A stretch of DNA of 64,000 nt from positions 62,001 through 126,000 of the forward strand of contig NZ_JAALCR010000006.1 in the NCBI RefSeq assembly GCF_011065895.1, in the 5' to 3' direction. The position numbers were made by a program, and so were the translations under genes. Below the pieces are notes generated by a model that did no database searches, was not told the DNA's origin, and was given only the letters and a program-made list of their open reading frames with translations. Positions within the stretch are counted from its first letter, which is position 1. The number at the start of each line of letters is the position of its first letter. Shown in pieces: positions 51,608 to 52,456 of the stretch. Source of the DNA: Paludisphaera rhizosphaerae. GTDB lineage: Bacteria > Planctomycetota > Planctomycetia > Isosphaerales > Isosphaeraceae.

Positions 51608-51943
51608 GCGGCCCTAGCTCAACGGCAGAGCAGGGGACTCATCAGTACAAGGTGGCGCCGGGGGGCGACCCTCGAACGCGAACCGGGTGAATTGCGGGAA
51701 ACCTAAACCTCCGAGAGGGGGCAAGGCAATCCGCAGCCGAGCCTGGCCGGGCGAAAGGTGGCCAGGAAGGTTCAGAGACTAGCGGGGTGAGACCCAACGA
51801 TAATCCCCGCCGCGAGCGCCCGGCCTCCCCCGCCCTCCCCTGCCTCTCCCGGTCGGCGGAGCGAGGATGAGATAGTCCAAGCCCCGTGGAAACGCGGGGG
51901 CCCTTGAATCCCTTGGTTGCAGGTTCGAATCCTGCGGGCCGCA
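51608..51943 (+). tRNA. tRNA with CAU anticodon, interrupted by a group I intron
   Basis: Exon 1 (51608-51642) and exon 2 (51907-51943) fold to a complete 72-nt cloverleaf: acceptor GCGGCCC/GGGCCGC, D arm GCTC/GAGC with GG in its loop, anticodon stem GGGGA/TCCCT, loop CT-CAT-AA, 5-nt variable loop TGGTT, T arm GCAGG-TTCGAAT-CCTGC, discriminator A. CCA is not encoded. The G1-C72 pair argues against initiator tRNA. The TTGGT variable loop resembles tRNA-Ile2 (CAU read with lysidine), but elongator tRNA-Met cannot be excluded. Confidence 0.92.
51643..51906 (+). ncRNA. group I self-splicing intron (IC3-like), 264 nt
   Basis: The intron begins directly after the anticodon CAU and ends with the terminal G at 51906. 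The internal guide GTG at 51652-51654 pairs with the 5' exon's CAU, including the U-G wobble that defines the splice site. The core elements are present in order: P as ATTGCGGGAAA (51691-51701), Q as AATCCGCAGCC (from 51728), R as GTTCAGAGACTA (from 51780), and S as GATAGTCC (from 51871), then a P9 hairpin CCCCGT-GGAA-ACGCGGGG. There is no homing endonuclease frame. Both anticodon-loop position and guide match the Azoarcus tRNA-Ile(CAU) intron type. Confidence 0.92.
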
Positions 51944-51958
51944 CTACCCCCCTCTCCC

Positions 51959-52456
51959 ATGCCGACTCCTTCCGAACCACTGAAGCCCCAGATCGCCCAG
52001 GAGCAGCTCGAGCGCCTCCTGGACGGCATCGACCCCGCTCTTCGGGCAAGGTCGCGGGGCCCGTTCGAAGAGGCCGACGCGCGCGGCCTCGCCGTGGTCC
52101 ACGGCCTCTTCCGGGCGGTCGGCGAAGGAGACTTCTCCGCCATGGCCGCGATGTTCCACGAGGAGATCGAACTCGAGATCACCGGTCCGCCGAGCGTCCC
52201 GTTCCTCGGCGCGTGGAGCGGCCGGGAGACCGTCGCCGAGACGGTCCGGCGCAACTTTGAGATGCTCGACGCCCAGGCCCCCGAGGTCGTCTCAATGAGC
52301 GTCCAGGGGGACCACGTCGTCGTGATCCTTCGCGAACGGGGTCGCTACATCGCCACCGACCTCGAATACTCCGTTCGATGCGCCCAGGTCTTCACCCTGT
52401 CCGACGGCCTCGTCCGCCGCGTCCGGGAGATCATCGTCGACGAACCGGCGGACTAA
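51959..52456 (+). CDS. NTF2/SnoaL-like protein
   Basis: 165 residues from the ATG at 51959, 15 nt after the tRNA. After a helical N-terminus, residues about 45-160 (VVHGLFRAVGEGDFSAMAAMFHEEIELEI, FLGAWSGRETVAETVRRNFEMLD, FTLSDGLVRRVREIIVD) fit the cone-shaped NTF2/SnoaL fold of isomerases, dehydratases and ligand-binding proteins. No active-site residues can be assigned. Its stop is 10 bp from the convergent end of the giant M56 gene. Confidence 0.78.
   Translation: MPTPSEPLKPQIAQEQLERLLDGIDPALRARSRGPFEEADARGLAVVHGLFRAVGEGDFSAMAAMFHEEIELEITGPPSVPFLGAWSGRETVAETVRRNFEMLDAQAPEVVSMSVQGDHVVVILRERGRYIATDLEYSVRCAQVFTLSDGLVRRVREIIVDEPAD

Follow-up and report, generated by a model that had tools for sequence, protein, structure and literature searches.

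A tRNA-Ile(CAU) gene interrupted behind its anticodon

The window analyzed here, a 64,000-nt stretch of the Paludisphaera rhizosphaerae genome, carries a tRNA-Ile(CAU) gene in two halves at positions 51608-51943 of the plus strand, with 264 nt lying between them. The 5' exon (51608-51642; GCGGCCCTAGCTCAACGGCAGAGCAGGGGACTCAT) comprises the 5' strand of the acceptor stem, the D arm, the 5' strand of the anticodon stem, C32, U33, and the anticodon CAU at positions 34-36; it is near-invariant in the alignment of the family Isosphaeraceae. The intervening group I intron (51643-51906; CAGTACAAGG...GGCCCTTG) sits between tRNA positions 36 and 37, and the 3' exon (51907-51943; AATCCCTTGGTTGCAGGTTCGAATCCTGCGGGCCGCA) ends with the discriminator base A, the CCA end not being encoded. 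When the two exons were joined, ARAGORN returned a perfect cloverleaf, tRNA(CAT), and the anticodon loop took on the correct 7-nt sequence CUCAUAA. Run without introns, the program detected no tRNA anywhere in the window; with introns allowed, it found the 264-nt intron and called the tRNA Gln, because it had placed the intron one register off. Neither a promoter nor a terminator consensus could be recognized in the vicinity of the gene.

A default Rfam scan of the window gave no match, because the score of the intron lies under the curated cut-off for Intron_gpI (RF00028), which is 50 bits. With an E-value threshold instead, we obtained a match at 51630-51899 that covers all 253 model positions with 44.3 bits and an E-value of 3.7e-10 for the stretch, or 1.6e-9 when the whole genome was searched. 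The preliminary description of this DNA had named a covariance score below threshold as evidence against its reading. Formally, the score does fall short (44.3 < 50), but this is outweighed by the genome-wide E-value and by 40 homologues that share the exact site; the cut-off was exceeded in 30 of the 45 family genomes. The full-length match and the perfect spliced tRNA bear out what that description had proposed, namely a tRNA(CAU) gene broken by a group I intron directly after the anticodon, and its intron length of 264 nt and its splice sites hold to the exact coordinate. It was also right in claiming that no homing endonuclease is encoded: we found no such ORF in the intron, and 264 nt leave no room for one. 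A minus-strand ORF overlapping the intron (51642-52049) was judged spurious; it continues through the 3' exon.

Anatomy and covariation of the intron

We aligned 24 Isosphaeraceae precursors and scored them against a named structure consisting of P1 to P7, a hairpin between P7 and P3, P8, P9.0, and P9. The internal guide GUG (51652-51654) pairs in P1 with the anticodon CAU, with a U·G pair at the 5' splice site, and is invariant in all 24 family sequences and in 28 of 28 sequences of a second alignment that combined the family with gammaproteobacterial introns. It is followed by the P2 hairpin (51655-51679), which has a GNRA loop (GCGA) and two-sided changes in six of nine pairs, and by the 5' strand of P3 (51683-51689, CCGGGUG; partner CGCCCGG at 51817-51823), with two-sided changes in both alignments. 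Element P (AATTGCGGGAAACC; 51690-51703) supplies the 5' strands of P4 and P5, and P4 changes on both sides between the clades. Elements Q (AATCCGCAGCC; 51728-51738), which contains the 3' strand of P4 and the 5' strand of P6, and S (GAGATAGTCC; 51869-51878), the 3' strand of P7, were placed with the family alignment. The 5' strand of P7, with the guanosine-binding G-C pair, is provided by element R (TTCAGAGACTA, also given as GTTCAGAGACTA; 51771-51781). P7 forms in all sequences and is without covariation, because its pairs never vary.

Between P7 and P3 lies an extra hairpin of 29 nt, P7.1 (51782-51810; GCGGGG...CCCCGC), which covaries between the clades: it reads GCGG/CCGC in the Isosphaeraceae and CCUG/CAGG in the gammaproteobacterial introns, both sides having changed in two of the four pairs. 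P8 (51824-51866) is paired in 95.8% of cells. The 5' strand of P9.0 (51879-51881, AAG) pairs with CTT at 51903-51905, which adjoins the terminal (omega) G at 51906. Here, too, covariation was observed, the first pair being A-U in 17 and G-C in 7 of the 24 relatives with no exception. P9 (51882-51899), with two-sided changes in three of seven pairs, is closed by a GAAA loop, so that L2 and L9 are both GNRA loops. The U·G pair at the 5' splice site and the terminal G are invariant. The intron thus has the core of its class, P3-P8 with the P7 pseudoknot and P, Q, R, and S in order, and all of the elements first described from the DNA, including the final G and the GTG guide to CAU with its wobble at the splice site, are present.

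Across the 24 relatives, 99.1% of cells were paired in the named structure compared with 34-48% when the partners were slid, a control that is favored by construction because the structure was partly read from the same alignment. Two-sided changes were seen in 18 pairs, compared with an average of 8.1 after shuffling, and none of 500 shuffles, which leave the relatedness of the sequences in place, reached any of the five observed covariation values. Covariation in the family supports P2, P3, P5, P6, P9, and P9.0, and the 28-sequence alignment added further two-sided changes in P3, P4, and P7.1. Minimum-energy folding of the GC-rich intron was uninformative (z -0.5).

Occurrence and descent in the Isosphaeraceae

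We compared 45 genomes of the Isosphaeraceae with those of 153 other Planctomycetia. Intron_gpI matched in 43 of the 45 family genomes, and from 40 of them a complete tRNA-Ile(CAU) intron at the identical site (CAT-intron-AATCCC) could be extracted; one further genome holds an intron fragment cut by a contig end. A pattern search allowing up to three mismatches revealed an uninterrupted tRNA-Ile(CAU) in none of the 45 family genomes and in 100 of the 153 others, a few of the latter being other tRNAs that fit the pattern with three mismatches. Four family genomes (64, 74, 77, and 96% complete) yielded the gene in neither form, intact or interrupted. The gene is likewise interrupted in Singulisphaera acidiphila DSM 18658 and Isosphaeraceae bacterium KatS3mg108. 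With the intron at one site in nearly all members, the ribozyme would appear to have been needed for AUA decoding since the family arose.

The intron tree (238 columns) and the RpoB tree were compared for 36 genomes. Twelve of 33 splits were common to both, whereas permuted labels gave a mean of 0.22 and a maximum of 3 (n = 2000), and the rpoB topology explained the intron alignment better than permuted topologies by more than 400 log units. Complete identity of the trees was rejected by the AU test (p 4e-5) but not by the SH test (p 0.10), and one intron branch with 90% bootstrap conflicts with well-supported rpoB branches. Limited exchange of introns within the family, or a misfit of the model caused by stem covariation, may lie behind this conflict. 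Because the two trees agree far beyond chance, inheritance of the intron within the Isosphaeraceae seems to have been mainly vertical. Synteny is no argument for descent, since the neighbors are not conserved across the family: among the flanks compared, a neighbor of the window gene recurred at only two other loci.

Group I introns count among the mobile elements, and gammaproteobacterial relatives occupy the same site, both of which would suit a transient, mobile element that this genome acquired recently by horizontal transfer. Against such an event stand the near-universal presence of the intron in the family, where no intronless gene was found, an intron tree that tracks rpoB, the separation of the family introns as one group (96/95) from the gammaproteobacterial introns, and a length of 264 nt that holds no homing endonuclease. 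We therefore consider a recent acquisition highly improbable.

Relationship to other group I introns

The preliminary description had placed the intron in subgroup IC3 with that of Azoarcus. The IC3 core is not known to contain a P7.1 between P7 and P3; neither is the Azoarcus intron, which measures about 205 nt. With the tRNA-Ile(CAU) intron of Azoarcus sp. BH72 (IC3), the window intron has in common the same tRNA, the 3-nt CAU/GUG guide, the G-U wobble, its small size, and the lack of an ORF, and the GNRA loops in L2 and L9 also speak for IC3. It differs in its length of 264 nt and in the extra hairpin at 51782-51810, a position at which IC3 introns are not known to have one. Furthermore, in a tree computed without the R-to-S columns, a branch with 99/97 support separates the introns that bear P7.1 from those that lack it. 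Forcing the Isosphaeraceae introns together with a P7.1-less planctomycete intron (L092) cost 12 log units, a grouping that is not formally rejected (AU 0.15). Because P7.1 is present and its bearers branch apart, the IC3 assignment is unsupported, and an intron of the Azoarcus type is in our view unlikely.

P7.1 instead groups the window intron with introns from gammaproteobacterial tRNA-Ile and from planctomycete tRNA-Asn. Among the matches listed, the hairpin also occurs in gammaproteobacterial tRNA-Ile(CAU) introns at 36/37 (Lysobacter, Rhodanobacter, Dyella, Woeseiaceae, and others), which resemble those of the Isosphaeraceae in tRNA, site, guide, P7.1, and side of the tree. They differ in the sequences of P4 and P7.1 and form a separate group (97/98) in the same tree in which the Isosphaeraceae introns are one. 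Outside the Isosphaeraceae, P7.1 was found in two planctomycete tRNA-Asn(GUU) introns at site 35/36 (L085, G183:C3; L090, G150:C545), and it was absent from the examined planctomycete introns of tRNA-Leu(UAA), the initiator tRNA, tRNA-Ile 33/34, and tRNA-Arg. The tie to the Gammaproteobacteria implies that the intron was transferred at least once in the distant past. The question whether descent was vertical or horizontal, which the earlier description had asked, has two levels: mainly vertical within the Isosphaeraceae, as judged from the trees, and apparently horizontal at least once in the older history of the lineage.

The P7.1-less intron L092 (G056:C275) comes from a planctomycete of another family and interrupts tRNA-Ile(CAU) at the identical 36/37 position; one site therefore hosts two kinds of intron. 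The tRNA-Ile2 group I introns of Acidovorax and Burkholderia interrupt the same tRNA and were missed by tRNA finders (PMC8450103), in other taxa than here, while further known old group I introns in tRNA anticodon loops occupy different tRNAs and insertion positions.

Probable self-splicing and the decoding of AUA

Self-splicing of group I introns proceeds in two steps initiated by guanosine. As its anatomy suggests, the tRNA-Ile intron probably splices itself out in this manner. The transcript would fold into the group I core, and exogenous guanosine bound in P7 would attack after U36. The 3' end of the anticodon, thus released, would then attack after the terminal G, which P9.0 is predicted to hold, and the exons would be joined to the 7-nt loop CUCAUAA. 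The product would be the precursor of a lysidine-modified tRNA that reads AUA. The combination of a 3-nt guide and a G-U wobble is known from the Azoarcus tRNA-Ile intron (guide GMG, tag CNU; PMC6274277).

Besides the interrupted gene, the chromosomal CAU tRNAs of the genome are two of the initiator type and one of the elongator-Met type, and no tRNA-Ile(UAU) was seen in the genome. TilS, the enzyme that turns CAU into lysidine-AU, is encoded (TilS N-terminal domain, 158 bits). The tRNA of the window, with its CAU anticodon and its distinctness from the initiator and elongator tRNA-Met, is consequently of the lysidine type. On the chromosome, the interrupted gene seems to be the sole provider of an AUA-reading tRNA; as no copy without an intron accompanies it there, the decoding of AUA apparently requires splicing. 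The dependence of this tRNA on splicing, as originally proposed, is thereby supported. Sole dependence is likely rather than proven, because two odd CAT tRNAs on a prophage-like contig might supply some AUA-reading activity.

That contig (L063; G000:C33:38500-56382) carries integrase, Prim-Pol, head-protease, and tape-measure genes together with an array of some 25-30 low-scoring tRNAs, which includes a Lys(UUU) in addition to the two odd CAT tRNAs.

If AUA were read by another tRNA, the gene could be dead or its intron a degenerate relic, and the two odd CAT tRNAs as well as an Intron_gpI score below the Rfam cut-off could be taken in this sense. A dead gene or relic is, however, extremely improbable, as exons and catalytic core are nearly invariant across the family, changes in the stems are compensated, and no chromosomal alternative tRNA was found. 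We conclude with high confidence that the locus is a chromosomal tRNA-Ile(CAU) gene with an ORF-less 264-nt group I intron of the P7.1 lineage at 36/37, and that AUA decoding apparently depends on its splicing.

A second intron in tRNA-Lys(UUU)

The same genome has a second group I intron, located between positions 34 and 35 of tRNA-Lys(UUU) (L002; G000:C14:148227-148516, minus strand). It has no P7.1 and belongs to another lineage, unrelated to the tRNA-Ile intron. tRNA-Lys(UUU) was interrupted at 26 of 30 inspected Isosphaeraceae loci (L317-L346) and uninterrupted at four, all from one genus; by pattern, these four genomes were the only ones with an intact gene, from which the intron is precisely absent. 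Rfam detected only a minority of the tRNA-Lys introns of the family. The tRNA-Lys(UUU) of the prophage-like contig exists in addition to the interrupted one. With introns in both genes, a genome can appear devoid of tRNA-Ile(CAU) and tRNA-Lys(UUU) to default Rfam and tRNA finders.

The long retention of the tRNA-Ile intron, with no loss detected in the family, might also be explained by removal that is not freely autocatalytic but regulated, or dependent on an indispensable helper protein, so that the intron acts as a checkpoint on tRNA-Ile maturation. Many group I introns are generally known to need helper proteins in vivo (for examples, see PMC3984707). However, one genus of the family cleanly lacks the tRNA-Lys intron, so that such introns are dispensable in principle, and we regard a helper or checkpoint as doubtful. 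Still less probable, to the point that we give it little credence, is the idea that the introns of these two essential tRNAs, present in tRNA-Ile(CAU) throughout the Isosphaeraceae and in tRNA-Lys(UUU) in most of them, are kept as a physiological control through ribozyme-governed maturation of the tRNAs for AUA and AAA and not merely tolerated.

Context and further planctomycete introns

A self-splicing tRNA-Ile intron at 36/37 is of a known kind, Azoarcus included, and the interest lies more in its family-wide fixation and its lineage than in its mechanism. The tRNAscan-SE 2.0 paper mentions group I introns in tRNA-Ile(CAU) of Acidovorax and Burkholderia (PMC8450103), and planctomycetes go unmentioned in a review of bacterial group I introns published in 2014 (PMC3984707). 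In the open-access literature, we found no report of tRNA group I introns from planctomycetes or Isosphaera, an absence that is weak evidence; nor did we find there a description of fixation throughout the family, of tRNA-Lys or tRNA-Asn as hosts, or of a lineage marked by P7.1. Besides the cyanobacteria with their tRNA-Leu intron, the Isosphaeraceae would be another lineage in which a ribozyme apparently became established in an essential tRNA and stayed there for as long as the family has existed. The presence of the P7.1 lineage in gammaproteobacterial tRNA-Ile and in planctomycete tRNA-Ile and tRNA-Asn makes descent versus movement between tRNAs testable, and a culturable host exists in Singulisphaera acidiphila.

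Other Planctomycetia (L094, L099, L121, L101-L104) carry tRNA-Ile(CAU) introns at 33/34, with sporadic introns in the initiator tRNA, tRNA-Leu(UAA), and tRNA-Arg(CCU). High-scoring planctomycete Intron_gpI matches without an associated tRNA proved in most cases to be rRNA introns. Among further Planctomycetia (L082, L083, L084, L086, L087, L088, L089), group I introns were observed in 23S rRNA at six loci, one of which has two, and in 16S rRNA at one (L086).
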